DNA of 64,000 nt from Zingiber officinale. Lineage: Eukaryota > Streptophyta > Magnoliopsida > Zingiberales > Zingiberaceae. The stretch covers positions 5,355,705-5,419,704 of the forward strand of contig NC_055987.1 in NCBI RefSeq assembly GCF_018446385.1, read 5' to 3'. A program made the translations under genes and the position numbers. Below are positions 2,924 to 63,922 of the stretch, piece by piece. The notes under the pieces were generated by a model. That model was not told where the DNA came from. It saw only the letters and a list, made by a program, of their open reading frames with translations, and did no database searches. Positions within the stretch are counted from its first letter, which is position 1; each line of letters opens with the position of its first letter.

Positions 2924-3740
2924 CCTCTAACTTGGTCTGAGGCACCTCCAACTGCAAGAGTTATCCCCTAAGCTTTAGACTTGATAAACCTAGTAAATTG
3001 TGGTTTCTATCCATTGGAGGGCACCTCCCAAGTGCTCCGAGGTGTCTCCACATCAAGCTCCAGGGCACCTCCAGCTACATGGGAGGCACCTCTGCCCTTT
3101 CTGCGCGGGGTCTTCAGCCAAGACATCCAAGGCGCCTCCAACAACACAGGAGGCGCCTCGAGCACTATTCACCTGAGCTATTCTTTGTGCATTCCACTCC
3201 TGCAAAATATGCTAGTAAAAATACCAATGATACTCTGCAAAATAAATTAGCATAATATAAAATAGTATTTATTAATTAATTTGATAGTATCAGAACTGTC
3301 TGATTTTGACTTTTAGATTTCCCATAAAATCCTAGGTCGAACCGGCATCTATTGTTCCCTTAATGGGGAATGTATCCCCACCTACTCCTCTTAAGAGAGT
3401 TTACCTGATGTTAAATCGGTCCCCTAGATCGTTTGAACTTTTGTTTAGCGATCTTGACTCAGGACTTCCACTGGATGTTCGATCCCCGATCTGTCCAAAC
3501 TTCTGCCTTATGTCTATGACCCCCAAGACTTTCACCAACTGTCCTCGACCCATAGGATTTTCCACTCGACATCCTCGATTAGCTAAGACTTCTGCCCAGT
3601 CCTTTGGACTAGGATTTCTTTGCCTAGCCACAATTAAGGCTTTCCACCTCCACTTAGGGATTGGTACCTCCATGGGGGTGCTCATGGGGGCCAGAGCCCT
3701 GGTCAACTGGTTGGAATTCTATCGGAAAAGGGCATGTCGC

Positions 3741-4871: not shown

Positions 4872-5190
4872 CCTAACTGGATGTTGGGCATTTGGAAAGT
4901 CCTGGTGTGGAGCCAGGCAGTTGGAAAGTCCAAGTCTGATCTTGGCAAAGGAGAAAGTCCTGGTGAGGAGCCAGGCAATTGGAAAATCCTGGTAAAGAGT
5001 CAGGCAATTGGAAAGTCCAAGTGTGATCTTGGCAAAGGAGAGAGTCCTGGTAAGGAGCCAGGCAATTGGAAAGTCCAAGTGTGATCTTGGCAAAAGAGAA
5101 AGTCCTGGTGAGGAGCCAGGCAATTGGAAAATCCAAGTGTGATCTTGGCAAAGGGTGTAAGTCCAAGCATGTGGTCTTGGCAAGGCAAGT
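4872..5190. repeat. Covarying inverted-repeat array in LTR H
   Basis: Short stems follow one another: CCTGG(4901)/CCAGG(4913), CCAAG(4930)/CTTGG(4941), CCTGG(4959)/CCAGG(4971), CCTGG(4988)/TCAGG(5000, one G-U pair), CCAAG(5017)/CTTGG(5028), and more up to about 5190. Loops are 6-8 nt. Two arm sequences alternate and each is matched by its own partner, so both sides of the stem have changed together. Confidence 0.75.
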
Positions 5191-26667: not shown

Positions 26668-27951
26668 TGTTGGATCGAGATCGTGTTAGAGGGGGGTAAA
26701 TAGTACTCGTGACTTTCACACGTTTCGTAATCGGAAAACTATCGATTTATAAAAGTATCGGAGTAATGCAACGGAACTTTTAAAGACACAAAAGACAGAC
26801 ATCAAGATTTACTTGGTTCGGAGCCTTGGGCGACTTCTACTCTAAGGCCCGTGATCGTTAATCGCTTTCGGTGGGCAATAACTATAATATCGTTAAATAT
26901 TACAATTTTAAAGTACAATCTTAAATTTGAAATGACAATTATACCGACGAAAAATGACAATCTTGAAGCTTCGGATCGTCGGGGACTTGTCGTAGCTCAA
27001 CCAGAATGTCTCGTTAGCAGTGTACTGAAGAAGGATTGCTTTTTTACTTGAATTGTTAAGTTGCTGGTCGAAGTGGCCTTAAATAGCTTGTTGAGGGCAC
27101 CTCCAAGCCTATTCGAGGCGCCTCCAACTTGTCGAGTCAGTCGCACGGATCAACACAGAAGTGGTCGCAGCTTATCTGGTTGAAGGCACCCCCATTACCC
27201 TTTGAGGCGCTTCCAAGCCCGTCTAAGCCGCCTCCAGATCCGTCCGAGGCACCTCCAGCCCTGTTGCGTGCGCTGTATTTGCCTTGCACCCAAGGCGCCT
27301 CAAGCTCCATGAGGGCGCCTCGGGTACTGTTTATTCGAGGTAAAAATTTGTGTTTTAGTACCTACAAGATATGTTAGTCCCAAGATACCATGCAGCACAA
27401 TGTTAGCACATAACAAACATAATAGATGAAATGTTTGACAACCTCTAAGTTGTCCAGTTCTTACTTCAGATTTTCAATCGGAACCCCTAAGTCAAACCGA
27501 CGTCTATTGTTCCCTCTTCCAGGGAACGCGTCCTCACCTACTCAACTCAGGAGAGCATACATGTTTGCTAGTCCGGTCCTCCAGATCGATTGGACTTTCT
27601 GCCTAGGGTTATCACCCCTTAGAACCTAGGGTTACTGCCCCCTAGGATTTTTCTCCACCTAGGGTTACCACCCCTAGAACATAAGGTTACCCCCCTTAGA
27701 ATTTTCCTCCACCTAGGGTTACCACCCCCTAAGACCTAAGGTTGCCGCCCCTTAGAGTTTTTCTCCACCTAGGGTTACCACCCCCTAGAACCTAAGGTTA
27801 CCACCCCTTAGAATTTTCCACCTGCCTAACCACAGTTAGGACTTTCCTGAAACCTCATTCAAGCACGTTAGAACACAAATAATCTTAACTTTGAATTCCT
27901 TTGTCATTATCAAAACTAAGGTTTGATCGTCAGATGCTTCCCGCACCAACA
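26668..27951 (-). repeat. Element D 3' LTR
   Basis: It runs TGTTGGATCGAG to GCACCAACA. It contains GAGGCGCCTC-like palindromes (near 27116 and 27294-27325) and a block of degenerate direct repeats CCTAGGGTTACCACCCC (about 27600-27810). The sequence just inside it (27952-27970) reads as a purine tract on the minus strand, the expected polypurine primer site. 27952-28830 inside the element is non-coding, with several CTCCCCC tracts. Confidence 0.85.
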
Positions 27952-33051: not shown

Positions 33052-34106
33052 TGTTGGAGCAATCCCAATGGTCCGCGGGACCATGTGTTTTGGTGTTTGG
33101 GCAAAGGGTTTAAGTTAGGTTTACCCTTGTTATTTGATATGTGTACTTGAGTTGTGCAGGACTGCAGGTGACACATATGACTCAGGTTGACGGCTTCGGG
33201 TCCGGTGAAGGATGGAGCATCCGAGGGACCGTGGACAAGGTAGCGAGGACAAGGGCCGAGGGAAGCAACTTCGAGGCATACGCGAAGGATGGCATTGGGA
33301 CGAGCCGCGGGCTTGGATGCATCCGAGGGACGAGAGCCAAAGGAAGTAAGCTTGAAGGCAAGAGGTCAAAGTTGCAAAAGAAGAGTCAAGTGAGTCGTGA
33401 GGGTCCGAGTGCGAGAGAAATGTACTCGGGATGGGAAACCCTAAGTTTAGGGTTGTACCAGTCGACTGGTACTGGAACCAGTCGACTGGGGGTAAGCACA
33501 GAGAGGTTCTGTGCCCGAAATGGCTGGGATCAGTCGACTGGTCCTGGGATCAGTCGACTGGTCCTGGGACCAGTCGACTGGTAGATAGCCGTTGGAGAGC
33601 CGTTGGGCTGGCATCAGTCGACTGGTGCAAGGACCAGTCGACTGGTAATGGGCAAATCAGGTTCTGATTTGTTCCAAGCTCTATAAAAAGGAGCTTGGTA
33701 TGGCCGGCCAAGGCGACGAAATTAGACTTGGTTAAAGCCTAATTAGTAGTCACCAAAGTGCTCAAGGTTCTCTTGTGTCCAAGTGTTCTTGGTTGGAGTT
33801 GTGGTGAGGTTTCTCCACCCACAAGGAGGTTGAGCTAGCCGGAGTTTGCCGGGGACTAATCCACCGACGGATTGAGGGATCGTCCACCTTACGGACACAC
33901 CGTGGAGTAGGAGCAAATTATCTCCGAACCACGTAAACGAACGTGTTAGCGGTTTGCTCTCTTGTTCTTGTATTTGTATTTAGCTTTCGTATTTGTGTTG
34001 TATTATTTGTATTCCGCTGCGCAACTAACAAATACGTAGAAAGCGATTGATTTGGGGGCGCCGTCTATCCAACCCCCCTTTAAGCCGGCCGCAAGATCCT
34101 CCAACA
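33052..34106 (+). repeat. Element E 5' LTR
   Basis: It starts TGTTGGAGCAATCCC and ends GATCCTCCAACA. Seven copies of the palindrome core CAGTCGACTG lie between 33458 and 33650. The TATA-like box TATAAAAAG sits in the loop of a perfect 8-bp inverted repeat CCAAGCTC (33674-33681) / GAGCTTGG (33691-33698). The palindrome TGGCCGGCCA follows. The long frame at 33141-33584 is a shadow of the repeats. Confidence 0.9.
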
Positions 34107-35759: not shown

Positions 35760-36189
35760 ATGAGTCATGGAATGTGCCAAAAGGTTTAGAGACGGATTTG
35801 AGCCTCAACCTTAGGGAATTGACACAATTGGTGTGTGTTTCATGCAAGAAAATATGACATTGGGGTCATATAGAATGATAAATGATTTTGGATGTATAGA
35901 TGTCATATAAACCAATGCTAGGGATGCATTGTGGGTTGGTATGGGCAAATACATCAAGAGGAAGCCAAAACTTGGACTTTAGGTCAATGTTCAATTGAAC
36001 AATTTATCTAGTTTTGGATTTTGTGTCAATCTTGGGATTGGTAATAGATACATTTTGTAATGTATTTTTCCCAAGTATACAAGGGTACAATAGACCTCTC
36101 CACAAAATTTGGAAATTTTTGGAGGTCTAGGGAATTTCTGGTGCATTTCTGAAGTTGGCCTGAAAAGGTTGATTTTTTCAGAAATAGGA

Positions 36190-36375
36190 TACCAGTCGAC
36201 TGGTACAGATACCAATCGACTGGTAACAACATTTTTTAGCACAGAATGTCTCTGTAAGCTCATTTTGTCGATACCAGTCGACTGGTAACAGTAGATTTCG
36301 ACTACAGAATATTTCTGTAAGGTTCTGTCGAAGGGGGCAGTTGACTAGCACTTAGGGCAGTCGACTGATACCAGT
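36190..36375. repeat. Internal CAGTCGACTG palindromes of element E
   Basis: Three good copies (ACCAGTCGACTGGT and ACCAATCGACTGGT forms) near 36191, 36213 and 36272 and two decayed ones near 36340-36370 repeat the palindrome of the LTR, though this part is outside the LTR. 35760-36190 and 36376-36690 contain no frame or repeat I recognise. Confidence 0.8.
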
Positions 36376-36690
36376 CTGAAACTGTTTTCAGCATTGGTTT
36401 GTGACCATGTCAACTCGCTTAGATGTATGGGATCCAAGGGGGATTAATACATGAGTTTAGGGTTAATTTGGATGATAAGTTTTCAACAATTGGGATATTA
36501 TTGGAGAACTTTTTGGATGTTAGGCAAAGGGGGAGAAGTAAGGTTTAGTTGGGAAAACCTGAAAGTGCCTTTGAGTAGGGGGAGCCTTGGGATAGGTTCT
36601 TAAAAAGCCCTGTGGGAAAATCCTAGCTCAATGGGGAGCTTAGGTGTAGGGGGAGCCTTGTGATAGGTTCCAATGCTTGGTGCTTGTTTC

Positions 36691-37032
36691 GGCGGTTGCC
36701 AAGTGTGTAGCCTTGGCAATGTAAGTCCATTTGGCGGTGTAAGTCCAAGTGTGTAGCCTTGGCATCGTAAGTCCATTAGGCGGTTGCCAAGTGTGTAGCC
36801 TTGGCAATGTAAGTCCATTCGGCGGTTGCCAAGTGTGTAGCCTTGGCAACGTAAGTCCATTCGGCGGTTGCCAAGTGTGTAGCCTTGGCAATGTAAGTCC
36901 ATTTGGCGGTGTAAGTCCAAGTGTGTAGCCTTGGCATCGTAAGTCCATTCGGCGGTTGCCAAGTGTGTAGCCTTGGTAATGTAAGTCCATTCGGCGGAGT
37001 AAGTCCAAGTGTGAAGTCTTGGCATCGTAAGT
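36691..37032. repeat. Inverted-repeat array upstream of E 3' LTR
   Basis: Eight tandem units of 40-50 bp. Five have the long stem TTGCCAAG/CTTGGCAA with loop TGTGTAGC (for example 36696-36719, 36784-36807, 36826-36849); the one near 36957 ends CTTGGTAA, allowing a G-U pair. Three have CCAAG/CTTGG only. Units are joined by GTAAGTCCATTCGGCG. The frames read across it on the minus strand are periodic artefacts. Confidence 0.85.
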
Positions 37033-37110
37033 CCATTGTTTTTAGCATGTTTATTTGCTATATGTTTTCCCTAACTTAAACGTATTGCCAAACACCAAAA
37101 AGGGGGAGAT

Positions 37111-38114
37111 TATTGGAGCAATCCCAATGGTCCGTGGGACCATGTGTTTTGGTGTTTGGGCAAAGGGTTTAAGTTAGGTTTACCCTTGTTATTTGATATG
37201 TGTACTTGAGTTGTGCAAGACTGCAGGTGACACATATGACTCAGGTTGACGGCTTCGGGTCGGGTGAAGGATGGAGCATCCGAGGGACCGTGGACAAGGC
37301 AGCGAGGACAAGGGCCGAGGGAAGCAACTTCGAGGCATACGCGAAGGATGACATTGGGACGAGTCGTGGGCTTGGATGCATCCGAGGGACGAGAGCCAAA
37401 GGAAGTAAGCTTGAAGGCAAGAGGTCAAGGCTGCAAAAGAAGAGTCAAGTGAGTCGTGAGGGTCCGAGTGCGAGAGAAATGTACTCGGGATGGGAAACCC
37501 TAAGTTTAGGGTTGTACCAGTCGACTGGGGGTAAGCACAGAGAGGTTCTGTGCCCGAAATGGCTGGGATCAGTCGACTGGTCCTGGGACCAGTCGACTGG
37601 TAGATAGTCGTTGGGCTGGCATCAGTCGACTGGTGCAAGGACCAGTCGACTGGTAATGGACAAATCAGGTTCTGATTTGTTCCAAGCTCTATAAGAAGGA
37701 GCTTGGTATGGCCGGCCAAGGCGACGAAATTAGACTTGGTTAAAGCCTAATTAGTAGTCACCAAAGTGCTCAAGGTTCTCTTGTGTCCAAGTGTTCTTGG
37801 TTGGAGTTGTGGTGAGGTTTCTCCACCCACAAGAAGGTTGAGCTAGCCGGAGTTTGCCGGGGACTAATCCACCGACGGATTGAGGGATCGTCCACCTTAC
37901 GGACACGCCGTGGAGTAGGAGCAAGTTATCTCCAAACCACGTAAACGAACGTGTTAGCGGTTTGCTCTCTTGTTCTTGTATTTGTATTTAGCTTTCGTAT
38001 TTGTGTTGTATTATTTGTATTCCGCTGCGCAACTAACAAATACGTATAAAGCGATTGATTTGGGGGCGTCGTCTATCCAACCCCCCTTCAAGCCGGCCGC
38101 AAGATCCTCCAACA
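37111..38114 (+). repeat. Element E 3' LTR
   Basis: It is the partner of 33052-34106. It starts TATTGGAGC instead of TGTTGGAGC, so its terminal TG is mutated. It has five CAGTCGACTG palindromes rather than seven. The TATA hairpin is kept (37681-37705, TATAAGAAG in the loop). Confidence 0.9.
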
Positions 38115-39738: not shown

Positions 39739-40949
39739 TGTTGGATCGAGATCGCGCTAGAGGGGGGTGAATAGCGCTTGTGGCTTTCACGCGTTTCATA
39801 ATCAGAAAACTATTGATTTATAAACGTATCGGAGTAATGCAGCGGAAATATTAAAGACACAAAAGACAGAGACACCAAGATTTACTTGGTTCGGAGCCTT
39901 GGGCGACTCCTACTCCAAGGCCCGCGATCGTTGATCGCTTTCGGTGGACAACAACTATAATATCGTTAATTATTACAATTTTAAAGTATAATCTTAAATT
40001 TGAAATGACAATTATACCGACGAAAAATGACAATCTTGAAGCTTTGGATCGTTGGGGACTTGTCGTAGCTCAACCGGAATGTCTCATTAGCAGCGTACTG
40101 AAGAAGGATTGCTTTTTTGCTTGAATTGCTAAGCTGCTAGTCGAAGTGGCCTTAAATAGCTTGTTGAGGGCGCCTCCAAGCTTGCCGAGTCAGCCGCATG
40201 GATCAGCACAGAAGTGGTCGCGGCTTATCTGGTTGAAGGTGCCTCCATTACTCTTTGAGGCGCCTCCAAGCCCGTCTGAGGCACCTCCAGATCCGTCTAA
40301 GGCGCCTCCAACCCTACTGCGTGCGCTGCATCTGCCTTGCACCAGAAGCGCCTCAAGCTCCATGAGGGTGCCTCGGGTATTGTTCATCTGAGGCAAAACT
40401 TTATATTTTAGTACCTGCAAGATATGTTAGTCCCAAGATATCCTGCAGCACAACGTTATCACATAACAAACATAATAGATGAAATGTTTAACAACCTCTA
40501 AGCTGTCCGATTCTGACTTTATATTTCCAACCGAAAACCTTAGGTCAAATCGACGCCTACTATTCTCTCTTTCGGGGAACGCGTCCTCACCTACTCCACT
40601 CGGGAGAGCATACCTGTTTGTCAGTCCGGTCCTTCAGACCGACTGGACTTTCTGCCTATGGTTACCACCCCCTAAGACCTAGGGTTACCGCCCCCTAGGG
40701 TTTTTCTCCACCTAGGGTTACCACCCCCTCAGACCTAAGGTCACCCCCCTTAGGATTTTCCTCCACTTAGGGTTACCACCCCCTAGGAGCTAAGGTTACC
40801 ACCCCTTAGGATTTTCTACCTGCCTAACCGTAATTAGGACTTTCCTGAAACCTCATTCAAGTACGTTAGAACACAAATAATCTTAACTTTGAATTCCTTT
40901 GTCATTATCAAAACTAAGGTTTGATCGTCGGATGCTTCCTGCACCAACA
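39739..40949 (-). repeat. Element D 5' LTR with primer binding site
   Basis: It is the partner of 26668-27951, about 70 bp shorter through indels in the GGCGCC-rich and CCTAGGGTTACC-repeat parts. Just inside, 39725-39736 reads TGGTATCAGAGC on the minus strand, the primer binding site complementary to the 3' end of initiator methionine tRNA. Confidence 0.88.
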
Positions 40950-50661: not shown

Positions 50662-52559
50662 TTGTGCTTAAGTCGGTGGTTAGTCCTTCTGAATCTGTTG
50701 GGCTCTAATACCATTTGTTGGTCCCTTGTGACCGACAAGAGGGGGGTGAATTGTCTTGTAAAAAAAATAAATACTTTTCTCGATCTTATAGCTTGATTAA
50801 AATACTTGTATAAAAGAATTAAAAAACTAATTAAAAAGAAAATAGAGACAAATCTTTTACTTGGTTTGCAATCAGAGGATTACTAATCCAAGGTAATTAA
50901 AGCTCACTAAAAATCTCCTTTGGGCTGAGTAGCCTCTTACAATGTTGACAATTCACAAACAAAGTAATAGAACAGAAAGAGAATCATTTACGAGTGTTGT
51001 TCTGAATTGTCGGATCAGGGTTGTATTTATAGCCCTGATCTGGGCGCCTAGATGTAGATAAACTTTTATCCACGGGGTTGAACCAACCCGTGACTAGGGC
51101 TCTCACCTAGGGCACCTTGGTTGCCCCAGGTGATTCGGCTGCCCGGACCAAGTCTGGGGGTCTGGAGTCCGAGCTCCTGAAATAGCTTCGGGCGCTTGGA
51201 CCAGAGTCAACTCCTAGTTGACTTTCTATCTGAGTCTTCTTCTCCATTTCCGCTCGCTTGGGTGATTTCGGCCATCCAGAATAGAGCTCACCCGAACTTA
51301 TTTTTTGATCTTCTCGAGCAACCTTCCTCTTCGCAACTTCTCATCCCTCGGAACTGTCGTGCGCTTCCTTCTAATCCACCAACATACTCTTTCCCAACGT
51401 CTCATCTCTCGGACGCATCGAGCCCATCGACTCTCTCCCCTATCATCCTTCTCGCTAGCTGCATCTTTTGTTCGACCTTCTATGCTCCTAAGTTCCTGCA
51501 CACTCAAACACAAGACATCAAAACACAATAGGACCTAAGTTGATTTAGTTGATCACATCAAAATGACCACAGAATACTTATAGTAACAACTTATTTTACT
51601 GTACTTTTATTTAGACTTGCAATAAAAATGTGCAAGAATGTTATACTTTTCTTATTCCTTATACTCGATTCCCTTTTCTGACGGTTCCAGAAAAGGTTTT
51701 TAGTGGATTGTCCATTGATATGATCCAACGGATTGTGGGTCTTGGAGTAGGAGTCGACGAAGACTCCAAACCAAATAACTGATCGTATACTCTATCTTTT
51801 CTTGTGTTTTATTTTCTTCCGCTATGCACTTTGTTTCAAAGTTTTATAAAGATAACAGTTTTTACAAAAAAAAGTCACATGATTCACCCCTCCCACACTT
51901 CTCTTACGTGCACCGATTCTATAGACCTTTGACCCACTTAGACTCTATCTTTGCCAACTTCTCGTTGGACTTTCGATTATTAAATGCGCTCCTCCTTGAA
52001 CTACTTGAATTTTTCTCTTGTCTAACCTCCAGTAAGGAATAATCATTTGTTAAACTTCCACCCTACCTAACTTCAGTTAGAACTTTCCCTTGCCTAATCG
52101 TAGTTAAAGCTTTCCTTTATTAACGTGCGATCCTTCTGACCCACTTAGACTTTCCTTTGCTTAACCTCGATTAGGACTAATCACTTCGTAGACTTCCACC
52201 ATGCCTAACCTTAGTTAGGGGTTTCCATGCCTAAGCACAGTTAAAGTTTTCTTTTGTCAACATGCGATCCTCTTTCACTCATTTAAATTTTCCTTTGCAT
52301 AACCTCAGTTTGGACTAGTCACTAGGTATAATTCTTCCTTATCTAACCTCAGTTAAGGTTTTTCCTTATCTAATCTCCAATTAAGATTTTCCGTTATATA
52401 ACCTCTAGTTAAAACTGTCATAGACAAGTATACGATTATCTCTTGATCTATTTAACTTTTCTATCACGTATTATTAAATATCAAAACTCAAACTCAAGTC
52501 AACTCAAGCTTAGTTAAATTGATTAACCTTAATTTAAGCATGATTACACCAACAAATAT

Positions 52560-56365: not shown

Positions 56366-56687
56366 TCGTATTAATCACAACGAGTGAAGTTGTGAACAAC
56401 GATGAGCAACTCTTCAGGGGGAGAGTTTTCAACAAGTGAGTTTGTTGATGTGTGCCCAAAAATGGGGCATGGTTTGATGTGTGCCAATAAGGGGAGAATG
56501 AAAGGGAGTAAGTTAGGATTTCATTACCTAGAGGGAGTTTGCCCTCTTAGGAGGAGAATGAAGAGCTTAACTTATGTATTCATTGCCCAGTGGCATGAAG
56601 CAGGTTTAGGCTATGGGATTAGCCTAACTTACACGTGGTATTGTAAGTGATAGTGTTGGTATTGCCAAACATCAAAAAGGGGGAGAT

Positions 56688-58153
56688 TGTTGGTGCAACA
56701 TCCCTCAGGTCAAGGTTGACCTGGTTGACCAAGTTTGAGTCTTGGTTTGGGTTTCGATGTTTGACAATGCAAGGCTGATTGAAGAAGAGTCAAGTAGGTC
56801 AAGGATGACCGGATACTTGAATGGAAAGTTCTAACTGGGATGTTAGGCAGAAGAAAATCCTGGTGAGTGAAGCCAGGTGAAAATCCTAGTGAGTGAAGCT
56901 AGGTGAAAGACCTGGTGAGTGAAGCCAGGCAGAAGAAAGTCCTAGTGAGTGAAGCTAGGCAGATTGGAAGTCCTGGTGAGTGAAGCCAGGCAGAAGAAAG
57001 TCCTGGTGAGTGAAGCCAGGCAGAAGAAAATCCTGGTGAGTGAAGCCAGGTGAAAATCCTAGTGAGTGAAGCTAGGTGAAAGACCTGGTGAGTGAAGCCA
57101 GGCACGGGGAAATTCAGATGGGTCAAGATTGACCAGACATATGGTGGAAGTCCAAGTAGGTCAAGGGAGTGACCGGATACTTGGCACGAAGAGAAAAGTC
57201 CAAGAGGGTCAAAGGGATTGACTGGACACTTAGTGGGGAGTCCTGGCAGGTCAAGGGAGTGGCCAGATGTTAGGCATGATATACCAACAGGTCAAGGTTG
57301 ACCGAATGTTGGTTTGAGAGGCTGGGGACTTGGTTTTGGGCAAAAACCAAGAGCTAGATCGATCCAGGCTTTTTCTAGCGAACAGAAAGCCTCTGGATCG
57401 ATCAGTGGATCGATCCAGGTCTTTCCCAGCGAACAGAGAGCCTCTGGATCGATCAGTGGATCGATCTAGAGGTCCCAATCGATCAGCCGATCGATTGGGA
57501 CGCTGCTGGTTCGCGCGATAAGCGCTGGATCGATCTGTGGATCGATCCAGGCGTTTTTCCAGAGCATAGAGGCGCTCTGGATCGATTCGTGGATCGATCC
57601 AAAGCCTCCCCGATCGATTGGGACTTTTCGAATCGATCGGGATCCGACCGTTGCGTCGTATTTGAGCTGCAGGCGTGCGATGGCTGCGACAGAGCTTTAC
57701 GATTTCATCTCAGATCACACCAGCGACTTCTCCACACTTCTCTCAAGCTCAGATGGCCAGTTCTTGAAGGTTCTTGGAGGCTTCCCAAGTCAAGAGGCGG
57801 ATCAAAAGCAAGTAGAAGAAGTTAGGGTTAGGGTTTTTATTGCACATCTTGTAAGCTTTTGCTTATCTTGTATTTCCCTTTCTTCTTCTTGTATTGAGAG
57901 TGTTGTAGGGCTTCTCCGCCTTTGGTAGTTACCATAAAGGAGTGTTATTCATAGTGGAGGGTGCGTGAGTAGGTGTGGATCCTTGGACTAGTCACCTCTT
58001 GTGAGGTGGATACCAAGTAAACCAACCTTGTTAGCGTTGTGTGGTTTGTTTCTTGTATTTTCGCTGCGCATCTTTGAAGAAACAAGCAACGACGAGCACC
58101 TAGCACACGAAGAGCTATTCACCCCCCCCTCTAGCTACTTTTCGGTCCTAACA
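56688..58153 (+). repeat. Element G LTR, first
   Basis: TGTTGGTGCAACATCCC to TTCGGTCCTAACA. It contains the hairpin array (56831-57107), a longer inverted repeat CCAAGTA-GGTCA / TGACC-TACTTGG (57152-57184), and palindromes of the GGATCGATC type (57355-57620). The end has CTTCTCCGCC, then TTCACCCCCCCCTCTAGC. The primer site TGGTATCAGAGC follows at 58156-58167. Confidence 0.88.
56831..57107. repeat. Covarying inverted-repeat array in LTR G
   Basis: After CTAAC/GTTAG (56831-56846) come nine units with loop TGAGTGAAG: CCTGG/CCAGG at 56859, 56911, 56972, 57002, 57032 and 57084, and CCTAG/CTAGG at 56885, 56941 and 57058. In every unit of this copy both arms match. In the second LTR (62610-62870) three units have lost a base pair. 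Confidence 0.88.
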
Positions 58154-58228
58154 AGTGGTATCAGAGCGAGGTCGCTCTTCACCGGAATCATCGCCAGAAG
58201 GGGCAAACAAAACAAGCAAAGCTAGAGG

Positions 58229-60096
58229 GTGAAGAAGTTGGAGCAATTCTACAAGTCGAAGACTTCATCACAAGAAGCTCAACTTCAAAGGGAATTCCGA
58301 GATGGACTCGGATTCGACACGAGGGTGCCTCCACCATACACATCTACAAGCTTCGACCTTTGGAAATCAAGGATCGAAAACTTCTTAATGGTGGAGATAG
58401 AGCAATGGTTTGCTCTCATGGAAGGTTTTGAAGCTCTCATAAATTCCAAGGGCAAAGTACTCAAGAGGAGCAAGTGGAGCCAAGACCAAATCCAAAGATG
58501 TGAGGCCAATGACAAAGTGACCAAGCTTTTGGTCAATTTATTGCCAAGCAACATCCTGGAGCAAATTGGAGAGTTTGAAGATGCCAAGGAGCTTTGGAGC
58601 AAATTGACAAGGATTCATGAGATCCCCTCCACTGTACCAAATCAAGGAGAATCCAAAGAGGGCAACTTAATGGATTAAAACCAAGAAGAGGAGGACTCCG
58701 AGGTTGAGAGATGCTCAACCTCCGAAGAGGAAGTCCAAGAAGCTTCATCCTCAAAAGAGAGCAATCAAAAGAGCAAGGAAGAAGTATATTCCTTGTTTCA
58801 TGTACAAGAGGATGAAGATGAAGAAGAAGGTGAAACCTCCACCTCTAGGATTGAGGGGGAGCAATCTTCATTGACACCGAAACAAGGGCAAGAAGAATCC
58901 TCCACATCCGGGTTAAGAGAAGAAGAGGATGAAGAAGCTTCCACCTCCACAAGTCAAGCAAAATCAAATGGAGGAATATCATCTTCGGATCAAGAGGAAG
59001 CTTCTACCTCCGAATCCAAAGGAGAAAGTGTCATCCCTACACAAAAAGGTATAAACATTTCAATTAATAATAAAAATCATATTATATGCTTTGAATGTAG
59101 GGAACATGGGCATTACAAGAGCAAATGTCCTAAATTGGCCAAGAAGAAGGGCCAAGTGGCATTAAAGGGCAAGGAGAAGCCCAAGGAGACCATCCCCGGA
59201 ACAAAGAAGAGCAAGGAGCACATTGTGTGCTTCTCTTGCAATCAAAAGGGGCATTACCGAAGTCAATGCCCTAATGGGAAGAAGGTGATCAAGGCTCATG
59301 GAGGAAGCTCAACTCAAGGGGGAGCCTCCAAGGTAAAAAAGAAGGTATCTTTTATTGAGCCTATTTCCTTGCAAAATGGTAAAAAGCATGCTAGGTCAAA
59401 TTTATATCATTTTAATGCCATTTACCATGAAAATAGGAAGCATGATAGCGTTAAGGAAAAACATATAGCTTTTCATGCTAAAACTACCACATCTAGGGTT
59501 AGGAAGGTAGATGAAAATCTAGGCAAGAAAACTAAGGGTTTTAGTTATAGACCTAGAAATAAAAATGCTCATGGGTTTAATGAAAAATCAAAATCTAAGG
59601 ATTTATGGGAAGAAAATCAAGTCTTGAGGTCAAGACTTGATAAAATGGAAAAGACCCTAAAAAGGATGGAAAATATCCTAAAAGGGAAAAATGAACAAAA
59701 CCTAGGTTTAAGGGTACAAAAGCCATCCATTGACCATAGAGGTTTGAGATACAGACTCAAAGCTAAAAAGGATGTGCCTAGTTATCATAGGGTTCCATAT
59801 AGGTATGGAACAACCCTAAGTCTAGAGGTCAAGTCAAGGATACAAGGGAAGACATCCCTAGAAGTATCTTTGCAACCAAAGTGACTAAGACTTCTAAGAA
59901 GTCTAAGAAAGTCACTAACAAGGTCACAAGGGAGTCTATCCCTAGAGTTGACCTAGAAAATGTGACCAAGGCTTCTAAGAAGCCCAACAAGGTCACTATG
60001 AAGGTATCTAGGGAAGTTATCCCTGGTAAATACCTAGAGCATCCAAGGAGCACCAATAGGTTTTGGGTTCCTAGGAGCATCTTCTCTACCCCATAG
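58229..60096 (+). pseudogene. Element G gag with one stop and one frameshift
   Basis: The frame starts MKKLEQFYKSKTSSQEAQ. It contains the gag segments SFDLWKSRIENFLMVEIE and LLPSNILEQIGEFEDAKELW, and stops at TAA 58676-58678. The same frame is open again to 59884: an acidic Glu/Ser-rich region, zinc knuckles CFECREHGHYKSKC and CFSCNQKGHYRSQC, and a coiled coil LWEENQVLRSRLDKMEKTL. A shift near 59881 leads to a short Lys-rich tail that ends RFWVPRSIFSTP at 60096. No protease or later domains follow. Confidence 0.8.
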
Positions 60097-62446
60097 ATGG
60101 GTTAGAGAGTGTCAACTCTAAAAAGAAGGGTAGTTAACCCAACTTTGAAGAAATTGACGCTCAAGGAACATTTTCAAGGTTATTATTCACCTTTGAAAAT
60201 AAAATGGATTTACATTTACTCTTTGGAAGAGTAAAATGTGCCAGAAAATTGAAAATATTGATTTTAATCTTATTTGGCACAATTTGGAAAAACATAAGAA
60301 ATACCAAGTTGGGATTTTGGCATTTTCTTAATATTTTAAGGCAAATCTTAGCCTTAGTTTAAAGTGTTTCTCTTATGAAAAAATGAAATATGCCAACACT
60401 TGAGGAATATGCTTAATTTAAATTGACATAAATTAATCAAGAGAATTAGAAATATTAAATTAGGTTTTGACACTTTCTTGAAGCACTTTGGGCAAATCTA
60501 GGGTTTAAGTTCTAGGATTAGCTAAGATTAAGGATACTTAGATAGACAATCTAGGTATATTTTATTTACGCTAAATCTTGCCATGATTGTTTGCCCATTA
60601 TATGTCATGACATCATGTTTTATTTTTGCACTCATGCCTTATTATAAAAATACAAAAATACCATGTCATGTCATACATACATCATGTAATTATAGGAATC
60701 TTTCTTTTGAAAGCTATCTCATTTTGATGTATGCCATAACATTATCATGCATCATGTTTAATTTCTTAAAAGCAAGGACAAATGGCATTTATCAACAAGT
60801 GTTTTCAACTAGTGTTGTCAACAAGTGGTATTAAAAAGTAACATCCTAAGTGGATGTTCAATATCCACAAAATGCCTAGATAGATATGCATGATCCCTAG
60901 ATTAGGGCAAAACCAAAATCTCACATCTCACAAGGACTATAAGGTGACTTGTATGTGTTTTAGTGCACATTAGATACAAGTAAGATGTTAGGAAGATGAA
61001 CAAAAGTCAAGATGTTGATTTAGTGCATTCTTTTGAGTTTTAGGTTCATCAAAACACATAGTTATGTGTTTTCCCATCATTGGGAAAGCTAATGTACAAG
61101 TCATGTGCATTAAGCCCAAGGAATGTGATGGGATATTGGTTTTGAAAATTATTTTAAAAAGGCTTTTGGAAAACCTTGGTGAAGGCTACCTTTTGATAGT
61201 AATCACCATTGAATAGTTAGACACAAACTTGAAGAAAATGCTAAAGTTTTAGCAAGTTTTCAAGCTTGTGTCAATCTTTGAAAATATGATGTATTTTCAT
61301 AGAAAACTATTTTTCCACGATAAAGTATACCCTAAATAATGTCTATACGAAATTTCGTGATTTTTGAATTTTTGTAGAATTTTCTAGGGGTTTCTGAAGT
61401 TGGCTGAATTTGAAATTCAGCAACTATCAGAGCTCCGATCGATCCATGGATCGATTGGAGTGTCTGAATCGATCAGTGGATCGATTCAGAAGGCAATTCT
61501 AGCGAGCAGAAGCTCGCTGGATCGATCAGCCGATCGATCCAAGAAGACTGAATCGATCAGTGGATCGATTCAGCAGGGTTCAATCGATTGAAACCCAACT
61601 CCAATCGATCGAAGATGCTGATTTTGGCTGGGAAGGTATGATTTCAGCATCTTTGAACCCGTTTTAGTCTAGTTAATCATTCCTAACCCCTCAAAATACA
61701 TTTGTATACATAAAAAGGGTGTTTTCATGTTGAAAACAAGGATGGATTGCTTAAGGAAGGCTAAGTTGAAGTTTAGGTTGAGGTTTGTTTTAAATTTTGA
61801 ATATTTGAACCTCAAAACTTCTAAAATTGGGTTTCCTAAAGTTTTAGGGATTCCAAGTCATTGTTGGTGCAATGATAGAAGAGACCACCATGTCTTTAGG
61901 GGGAGGGATTCTTTAAAGACATGAAAATTATTTCTCATGAACCTTTGAAGGTGGTTAATCTTCCGTTAAGAACATGCTCAAGGTTGAGCGTTTGAACTTT
62001 AATGGGGAGTGGATATCCTCATTGTTCAAGTGGTTTCAAGTGGATAATGCTCAAGGATGAGCATTTGCCTACATTGGGGGAGAATGTAGGGTTAAGGATA
62101 ATGAAGGGTATGGGACCTTCATTATCGTATTAATCACAACGAGTGAAGTTGTGAACAACGATGAGCAACTCTTCAGGGGGAGAGTTTTCAACAAGTGAGT
62201 TTGTTGATGTGTGCCCAAAAATGGGGCATGGTTTGATGTGTGCCAATAGGGGGAGAATGAAAGGGAGTAAGTTAGGATTTCATTACCTAGAGGGAGTTTG
62301 CCCTCTTAGGAGGAGAATGAAGAGCTTAACTTATGTATTCATTGCCCAGTGGCATGAAGCGGGTTTAGGCTATGGGATTAGCCTAACTTACACGTGATAT
62401 TGTAAGTGATAGTGTTGGTATTGTCAAACATCAAAAAGGGGGAGAT
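60097..62446 (+). other. Element G non-coding internal region
   Basis: No long frame. It includes ATCGAT-type palindromes at about 61433-61610 (same family as in the LTR). A short frame starting MSNSSGGEFSTSEF at 62161-62397 is duplicated at 56402-56650. The purine tract AAAAAGGGGGAGAT lies just before the LTR at 62447. Nothing else is recognised. Confidence 0.65.
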
Positions 62447-63922
62447 TGTTGGTGCAACATCCCTCAGGTCAAGGTTGACCTGGTTGACCAAGTTTGAGTC
62501 TTGGTTTGGGTTTCGATGTTTGACAATGCAAGGCTGATTGAAGAAGAGTCAAGTAGGTCAAGGATGACCGGATACTTGAATGGGAAGTTCTAACTGGGAT
62601 GTTAGGCAGAAGAAAATCCTGGTGAGTGAAGCCATGTGAAAATCCTAGTGAGTGAAGCTAGGTGAAAGACCTGGTGAGTGAAGCCAGGCAGAAGAAAGTC
62701 CTAGTGAGTGAAGCTAGGCAGATTGGAAGTCCTGGTGAGTGAAGCCAAACAGAAGAAAGTCCTGGTGAGTGAAGCCAGGCAGAAGAAAATCCTGGTGAGT
62801 GAAGCCAGGTGAAAATCCTAGTGAGTGAAGGTAGGTGAAAGACCTGGTGAGTGAAGCCAGGCACGGGGAAATTCAGATGGGTCAAGATTGACCAGACATA
62901 TGGTGGAAGTCCAAGTAGGTCAAGGGAGTGACCGGATACTTGGCATGAAGAGAAAAGTCCAAGAGGGTCAAAGGGATTGACTGGACACTTAGTGGGGAGT
63001 CCTGGCAGGTCAAGGGAGTGGTCAGATGCTAGGCATGATATACCAACAGGTCAAGGTTGACCGAATGTTGGTTTGAGAGGCTGGGGACTTGGTTTTGGGC
63101 AAAAACCAAGAGTTGGATCGATCAGTGGATCGATCCAGGCTTTTCCCAGCGAACAGAAAGCCTCTGGATCGATCAGTGGATCGATCCAGGTCTTTTCCAG
63201 CGAACAGAGAGCCTCTGGATTGATCAGTGGATCGATCCAGAGGTCCCAATCGATCAGCCGATCGATTGGGACGCTGTTGGTTCGCGCGATAATCGCTGGA
63301 TCGATCCGTGGATCGATCCAGGCGTTTTCCCAGAGCACCGAGGCGCTCTGGATCGATCCGTGGATCGATCCAAAGCCTCCCCGATCGATTGGGACCTTTC
63401 GAATCGATCGGGATCTGACCGTTGCGTCGTATTTGAGCTGCAGGCGTGCGATGGCTGCGACAGAGCTTTACGATTTCATCTCAGATCACACCAGCGACTT
63501 CTCCACACTTCTCTCAAGCTCAGATCGCCAGTTCTTGAAGGTTCTTGGAGGCTTCCCAAGTCAAGAGGCGGATCAAAAGCAAGTAGAAGAAGTTAGGGTT
63601 AGGGTTTTTATTGCACATCTTGTAAGCTTTTGCTTATCTTGTATTTCCCTTTCTTCTTCTTGTATTGAGAGTGTTGTAGGGCTTCTCCGCCTTTGGTAGT
63701 TACCATAAAGGAGTGTTATTCATAGTGGAGGGTGCGTGAGTAGGTGTGGATCCTTGGACTAGTCACCTCTTGTGAGGTGGATACCAAGTAAACCAACCTT
63801 GTTAGCGTTGTGTGGTTTGTTTTTTGTATTTCCGCTGCGCATCTTTGAAGAAACAAGCAACGACGAGCACCTAGCACGCGAAGAGCTATTCACCCCCCTC
63901 TAGCTACTTTTCGGTCCTAACA
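62447..63922 (+). repeat. Element G LTR, second
   Basis: It is the partner of 56688-58153 with few differences. The palindromes are at 63112-63400 and the hairpin array at about 62590-62870. It ends CCTAACA, after which host LTR C sequence resumes. Confidence 0.88.

Follow-up and report, generated by a model that had tools for sequence, protein, structure and literature searches.

The nine tandem hairpins in an LTR from Zingiber officinale, together with the hairpins that neighbour them, have arms that compensate for each other's changes, lose their pairing after insertion and, in the LTR pairs sampled, carry more inherited G.U than inherited A.C mismatches on the sense strand. Taken together, the evidence fits selection on the folding of the sense RNA better than it fits DNA palindromes, or template switching by itself. 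We give roughly an even chance to the complete reading, in which foldability of the sense RNA is selected during replication within a multi-hairpin U3 domain of a Sirevirus-type LTR, and the inserted copies are then free to decay.

The array and the element that carries it

The window, that is, the whole stretch of 64,000 nucleotides analysed, contains two LTR copies and the region between them (Table 1). The array spans 172 to 415 bp into LTR copy 1. A sequence-only reading had described nine tandem hairpins with a shared loop and two different stems, and this is confirmed: the TGAGTGAAG loop is exact in all nine units, six of which have CCTGG/CCAGG stems and three CCTAG/CTAGG stems. Its further claim that the arms match in every unit of this copy is also correct, each stem forming five out of five pairs; the interval that it gave, 56831..57107, does contain the array, but takes in a tenth hairpin of another type as well. 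Similarly, the three unpaired units that it noted in the second LTR are indeed broken, with 3' arms reading CCATG, CCAAA and GTAGG.

Table 1. Positions of the features in the window
Feature	Position	Strand	Remarks
LTR copy 1	56688..58153	+	1466 bp; bounded by TG..CA ends, PBS after
LTR copy 2	62447..63922	+	1476 bp
Internal region separating the two LTR copies	58154..62446	+	~4.3 kb
Polypurine tract (PPT) and AT ahead of LTR copy 1	56674..56687	+	
Primer binding site (PBS) TATCAGAGC	58159..58167	+	
PolyC integrase-type signal close to the end of LTR copy 1	58122..58134	+	
ORF with weak copia-type gag match	58229..58678	+	PF14223, E 1.3e-5, under the curated cut-off
ORF with CCHC zinc knuckle	58793..59884	+	PF00098, E 6.9e-8
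Hairpin D0, nested	56791..56819	+	outer CAAGTA/TACTTG, inner GGTCA/TGACC
Tenth hairpin	56831..56846	+	stem CTAAC/GTTAG, different loop
Array of nine TGAGTGAAG hairpin units	56859..57102	+	19 bp each; all fully paired
Array unit starts	56859, 56885, 56911, 56941, 56972, 57002, 57032, 57058, 57084	+	
Hairpin D1	57115..57143	+	A-T/G-C compensated inner pair between copies
Hairpin D2	57152..57184	+	outer stem CCAAGTA/TACTTGG
Hairpin D3	57200..57233	+	CCAAGTG/CACTTGG type, imperfect in the window
Hairpin D4	57242..57274	+	CCTGGCA/TGCTAGG type, inherited G.U pair in related elements
Hairpin D5	57284..57312	+	CCAACA/TGTTGG, three compensated pairs between copies
GGATCGATC/GATCGATCC palindromic boxes	57357..57641	+	nearest in look to published Sirevirus motifs
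Nine-unit array of the second copy	62618..62861	+	three broken stems

Tested against 200 dinucleotide shuffles, the 277-base stretch folds better than all of them on either strand (sense z -7.25, antisense z -3.77), which is more than chance would give. The order of the units within 56831-57107, G A G A G G G A G, allows distant units of the same type to pair and, thus, the best predicted sense fold is a long rod of inter-unit pairing rather than nine local hairpins alone, which places local and long-range pairing in competition. Across 510 distinct units, the loop begins with T and ends with G in 484, the two end bases being CG in 13, TA in 11 and TT in two; a U.G pair between the loop ends (e.g. 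56864 with 56872) would extend the RNA stem to 6 bp.

Judged by its sequence, the element is of Sirevirus type, carrying most of the marks of this Ty1/copia genus that were tested. As described in the available text of PMC2829016, these comprise more than one PPT copy ahead of the 3' LTR, a terminal PPT that is followed by an AT/TG attachment site, an inverted repeat about the PPT/3' LTR junction with its left arm adjoining the PPT, a CA/ATTGG (or AGTGG) junction followed by the PBS TATCAGAGC, and a polyC integrase signal at a mean of 21 bp from the LTR end. Here, AGGGGGAG-like tracts lie at 61898, 62175, 62248 and 62436 (judged by the description and not by the octamer letters); both LTRs start within GGGGGAG AT TGTTGG; TTGTCAAACATC precedes the PPT of copy 2, with GATGTTTGACAA inside the LTR, the former arm having one base different ahead of LTR copy 1; the end of LTR copy 1 reads CA AGTGG TATCAGAGC; C-runs are seen at 58122 and 63893, with ~24 bp separating the end of the first from that of the LTR; and the gag-like region encodes a CCHC zinc knuckle (Table 1). 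The exception is the TATA box, placed near mid-LTR in the same text, which also records two published members without it: TATAWA is absent from LTR copy 1. Among 22 related LTR loci, TATAWAW follows the array within 600 bp in four, only beyond 1.1 kb in another four, and is lacking in 14; the TATA-like box lies 475-593 bp past the array in L045, L061, L065 and L070. These four loci, together with the published Sirevirus layout, in which the palindromes are upstream of the TATA box (PMC2829016, available text), suggest that the array probably sits in U3. In the genomic RNA, this would probably place it close to the 3' end and not in the 5' leader. Retroviral packaging signals are usually found in the 5' leader.

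Ahead of LTR copy 1, there are 322 bp of internal 3' end including the PPT (56366-56687; 98.8% identity to 62125-62446), and the match to the internal region ends there. This points to a rearranged or tandem insertion, and the LTR copies in the window may not be a clean 5'/3' pair. The only sense ORFs of at least 90 aa between the LTRs are two, both gag-like and, thus, on ORFs of this size, the window copy is probably non-autonomous or degenerate. At 57354 of LTR copy 1, the second copy has 12 additional bases, inside GATCGATC palindromes.

Covariation of the arms across the genome

The degenerate 19-mer CCTRGTGAGTGAAGCYAGG matches 222,737 sites in the 3.09 Gb, 211-contig assembly, in which alleles are counted twice if both haplotypes are represented, and its reversed control matches none. 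At pair 4, these sites comprise 110,714 G-C (by subtraction), 99,394 A-T, 7,846 G.U and 4,783 A.C, such that mixed arms make up 5.7%, against 49.9% expected under independence; these site counts tally relatives many times over. The low share of mixed arms is largely inheritance and, therefore, the comparisons of inherited and private states given below are the better tests. At pair 3, both middle bases are other than T-A at 3,069 sites; the U.G wobble form accounts for 8,858 and the C.A form for 1,242. The genome listings used here give the first 100 matches per pattern, nearly all on contig C1; the 100 listed both-changed sites at pair 3, all on C1 and inspected by eye, are without exception complementary there, being of the CCAAG/CTTGG and CCCGG/CCGGG kinds or pair 4 variants of the latter. 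One and the same loop is found with matching arms for the stems CCTGG, CCTAG, CCAAG, CCCGG and CCCAG. An array with the loop TRAGGAG occurs at 4,966 sites genome-wide and, among the 100 listed, pair 4 is G-C in 66, A-T in 19, G.U in nine, A.C in five and other in one.

Mutual information over the 903 position pairs of the 510 distinct units ranks pair 4 first and pair 3 tenth, with hardly any covariation at array pairs 1, 2 and 5. Stem types mostly travel with their flanks, only 5 of 197 flank contexts holding more than one paired stem type and, consequently, few double changes are needed inside the array. In-situ stem switches in identical flanks are thus few in these 197 contexts, so that the array alone yields little independent covariation; the matching units seem, from their sequences, to be copies of a few unit lineages and not independent covariation events.

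The neighbouring hairpins provide further compensated pairs. D1 pair 9 is A-T in 23, G-C in 19, G.U in five and A.C in none of 47 distinct copies, and D3 pair 7 is G-C in 29, A-T in nine, G.U in one and A.C in none of 39 distinct copies. Over 52 copies of D5, three pairs vary: pair 2 (C-G 25, A-T 16, T-A 4, broken 6), pair 4 (A-T 28, G-C 18, A.C 4, G.U 2) and pair 5 (C-G 29, T-A 17, T.G 3, broken 3). The references for D2 and D4 partly match each other's copies and, therefore, the A-T/T-A and T-A/C-G differences seen with these lie between paralogous hairpins.

Changes before and after insertion

The LTRs of one element are identical at insertion, and thus states shared by both can be read as inherited and differences as later, private changes, although gene conversion between the LTRs could mimic inheritance in the former class. 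We compared 35 LTR pairs holding 241 units, a sample that is not random and whose cells are not independent: the pair in the window and those found by similarity to its array make up 13 (40 of 3,029 candidates scored), another 12 lie within the initial 2.5 Mb of contig C1, and the remaining 10 were taken for a rare paired stem type that both of their LTRs carry. Of the 28 candidate pairs aligned, L044/L045 (87.6% identity), L046/L047 (only 324 bp aligned) and L108/L094 (142 kb apart) were dropped; 8 of 211 units were removed as spurious, and the 35-pair count uses a stricter loop rule.

Private stem-pair changes number 97 in the 35 pairs. A mismatch is involved in 94 of them, which bears out the decay of inserted copies proposed in the sequence-only reading, and three remain Watson-Crick, one of them a clean switch whose alignment has many gaps (49 blocks). 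Thus, neither selection nor repair is apparent in inserted stems. Among the first 25 pairs, with eight false units still included, private differences per site amount to 3.1% and 4.9% for the two arms, 2.3% for the linkers and 0.7% for the loops. Independent arm changes would, by the terms of that reading, count against it; in the 35 pairs, they are present among the changes after insertion but hardly occur among the inherited states.

The inherited stem cells comprise 1,091 Watson-Crick, 14 G.U, one A.C and two other pairs, in contrast to the private mismatches of the array, with 38 G.U and 35 A.C (Fisher p 0.003). The 138 modules of D1 to D5 have 38 G.U, 10 A.C and 17 other inherited mismatches, as against 18 G.U and 25 A.C private ones (p 0.0005), and none of their 57 private changes is compensated. 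For the array and D1-D5 combined, Fisher's test gives p 6e-6, albeit with related cells that are not independent. Counted once per distinct class (module, pair and bases), the inherited G.U:A.C ratio falls to 19:10, which weighs against an RNA reading; the classes seen more than once are 10 G.U, one A.C and no other.

In a control set of 1,222 LTR alignment columns from 13 elements, the inherited changes are strand-symmetric (C>T 0.435 and G>A 0.391 per column), and thus a general mutation bias is not an easy explanation of the G.U excess. The private changes are uneven at single pairs (15 G.U and four A.C at pair 5; six G.U and 11 A.C at pair 1), indicating that local mutation rates differ between the arms. 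Additionally, among the listed places, a same-strand partner 3-8 kb away is seen at pair 4 for 24 of 100 G.U and 18 of 100 A.C units, and at pair 3 for 31 of 100 U.G and 10 of 84 C.A units (16 places on contig C2 excluded); these counts point the same way as the G.U excess, but more weakly.

Proposed selection on RNA folding, its alternatives and published Sirevirus palindromes

That the folded form matters or mattered, as RNA or as cruciform, was the central suggestion of the earlier reading. Its first part is supported, as the arms covary and the fold appears relevant during replication; in the second, the sense-strand asymmetry of the inherited wobbles argues for RNA rather than a cruciform. 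Dimerisation of the genomic RNA, Gag binding or packaging, named there as examples, would be candidate roles. The array would belong to a domain of many hairpins within U3 of a Sirevirus-type (Ty1/copia) LTR, in which, during replication, stem changes would survive where a Watson-Crick or G.U pair is retained; after insertion, selection would be off and the arms would decay independently. Selection would act on the sense transcript, with U3 near its 3' end, and the fold may serve replication through binding of zinc-knuckle Gag, or through RNA stability or export. The element's own zinc-knuckle Gag as the partner is a guess, and stability, export or a role as silencing decoy may apply equally. 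The broader proposition, somewhat short of an even chance in our estimation, is that U3 in this Sirevirus group is a large cis-acting RNA domain of at least a dozen hairpins per LTR, in which pairing in the sense RNA and not sequence is selected in each replication cycle, the LTR palindromes long known from Sireviruses being RNA elements first and DNA motifs second.

Several observations run counter to the RNA reading. The sampled LTR pairs have, at pair 4 of the array, no inherited G.U mismatch but one A.C and one other; at D5 pair 4, A.C exceeds G.U (4 against 2 of 52); and A.C units are also inherited in some elements, as the partners of 18 of the 100 listed show. Moreover, when 26 elements are compared with shuffles, the array folds no better in the sense than in the antisense orientation (mean z -4.77 and -4.71, respectively; p 0.62), and an ab initio inverted-repeat scan allowing one mismatch gave no strand signal (G.U:A.C of 14:5, against 62:25 in shuffles).

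Template switching, whether by reverse transcriptase or by DNA polymerase at the hairpin, would copy one arm onto the other with no selection on the fold. Matched multi-base changes around an unchanged loop, such as CCAAG/CTTGG beside CCTGG/CCAGG, are as expected from it, and both this mechanism and the compensatory traces that it leaves have been described: in the available text of PMC8794818, RNA hairpins maintained by template switching resemble the array in the compensatory changes of their stem arms. The array is unlike them in its strand-biased inherited mismatches (in our sample) and in that its inserted copies go almost unrepaired, paired private changes being 3 of 97 and 0 of 57; neither the sense-strand G.U excess nor the predominance of the U.G form at pair 3 (8,858 sites) over the C.A form (1,242) and over all both-changed forms (3,069) is predicted by template switching, which we regard as unlikely.

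We also assign a low probability to the possibility that the units are DNA palindromes, serving as tandem sites for dimeric transcription factors in a U3 enhancer, whose half-sites must match and hence covary. Sirevirus palindromes upstream of the TATA box have been interpreted in this way in print, by authors who also suggest that different factors may recognise the variant motifs (PMC2829016, available text). The array is similar in position to those palindromes. Furthermore, the GGTCA/TGACC cores are W-box-like. However, at least five stem sequences accompany one loop, and several more one frame, which is hard to reconcile with a single half-site, and DNA palindromes predict inherited G.U and A.C in equal numbers, from which the sample differs.

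Descent only, in which a small number of ancient double changes were multiplied through unit duplication and transposition bursts under no constraint, would fit the tie between stem types and flanks, which makes few unit lineages the apparent source of the 222,737 matches, but is very improbable, as D1, D3 and D5 have compensated pairs of their own between copies, arrays with other loops, which may be related, also show compensated pairs, and breaks are depleted among the inherited states, with inherited:private ratios of 17:94 in the array against 13:13 at loop/unpaired sites (p 0.0004) and 65:57 in the D hairpins against 100:21 (p 1e-6), site classes between which mutation rates differ.

Selection on sense-RNA folding has to be set beside what is known of this part of the LTR. 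Repeated motifs of palindromic sequence (RM boxes) have been published for the upper half of the LTR in Sireviruses (Bousios et al. 2010, PMC2829016; available text here and below), and thus, of the compensated palindromes described from the sequence alone, the covarying arms stand, but palindromes in this location were already known. The array shares with RM boxes a high copy number, dyad symmetry and a location in the upper LTR half, upstream of a TATA box: RM boxes are palindromic with at least eight copies in the upper half, and the array has nine units. It is unlike them in its 5-bp variable stems, fixed 9-base loop and at least two alternating stem versions, and in the absence of the CGG-CCG core, its stems being CCTGG/CCAGG and CCTAG/CTAGG; for want of that core, the array is not classed as an RM box, although Tnd-1 is also without it (PMC2829016). 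The GATCGATC boxes in the window do resemble the Tnd-1 motif ACAATCGATTGT (PMC2829016). In maize, the hairpin region of Sirevirus LTRs is a small-RNA hotspot (PMC5311732, PMC10760457; available text), and resembles the array in being a hairpin-rich, variable and fast-evolving part of the LTR with strong predicted folding, in the same element group; the maize motif is, however, quoted as a single consensus palindrome (PMC10760457), unlike the alternating stems seen here. The main text of PMC2829016, in the part available, makes no mention of covariation or compensation, nor does that of PMC10760457 of covariation, compensation or wobble, and the literature searched, by title and start of abstract and with Bousios 2016 outside its scope, contained no earlier report of covariation in plant LTR hairpins. 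This suggests that the compensated arms about a fixed loop, the split between inherited and private states and the asymmetry of the wobbles are without an earlier report, whereas the palindromes themselves are known.

Hitherto, the palindromes of Sirevirus LTRs have been regarded as promoter motifs and as structures that set off silencing by small RNAs; what makes elements retain structures that attract silencing has been posed as an open question (PMC10760457, available text). With more than 200,000 matching units and many datable LTR pairs in one genome, it can be asked what was selected before insertion, and the inherited/private split with its contrast of G.U and A.C is a simple test that is applicable to maize, barley and other Sireviruses.

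Arrays with other loops in the window (4887-5180 and 27602-27812) share the design. The first alternates CCTGG/CCAGG with CCAAG/CTTGG and has at least one broken unit; a first look at the genome gave 3,666 candidates for it, of which 40 were scored. On the minus strand, 27602-27840 and 40655-40816 hold an array alternating CTAAGG/CCTTAG with CTAGGG/CCCTAG, which may, from its sequence, be a separate instance of stems with A-T/G-C compensation; at 27602-27812, eight units were found, three of them imperfect. A more degenerate minus-strand array of the CTAAC..GTTAG type lies at 52023-52412, and eight CCAAG..CTTGG hairpins in 42-46 bp steps (36688-37037) stand just ahead of a PPT-like tract near 37100. 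Finally, 20-bp tandem boxes at 33524-33582, 37562-37654 and 36188-36225, with CAGTCGACTG-like palindromes, resemble the repeated motifs of Sireviruses.
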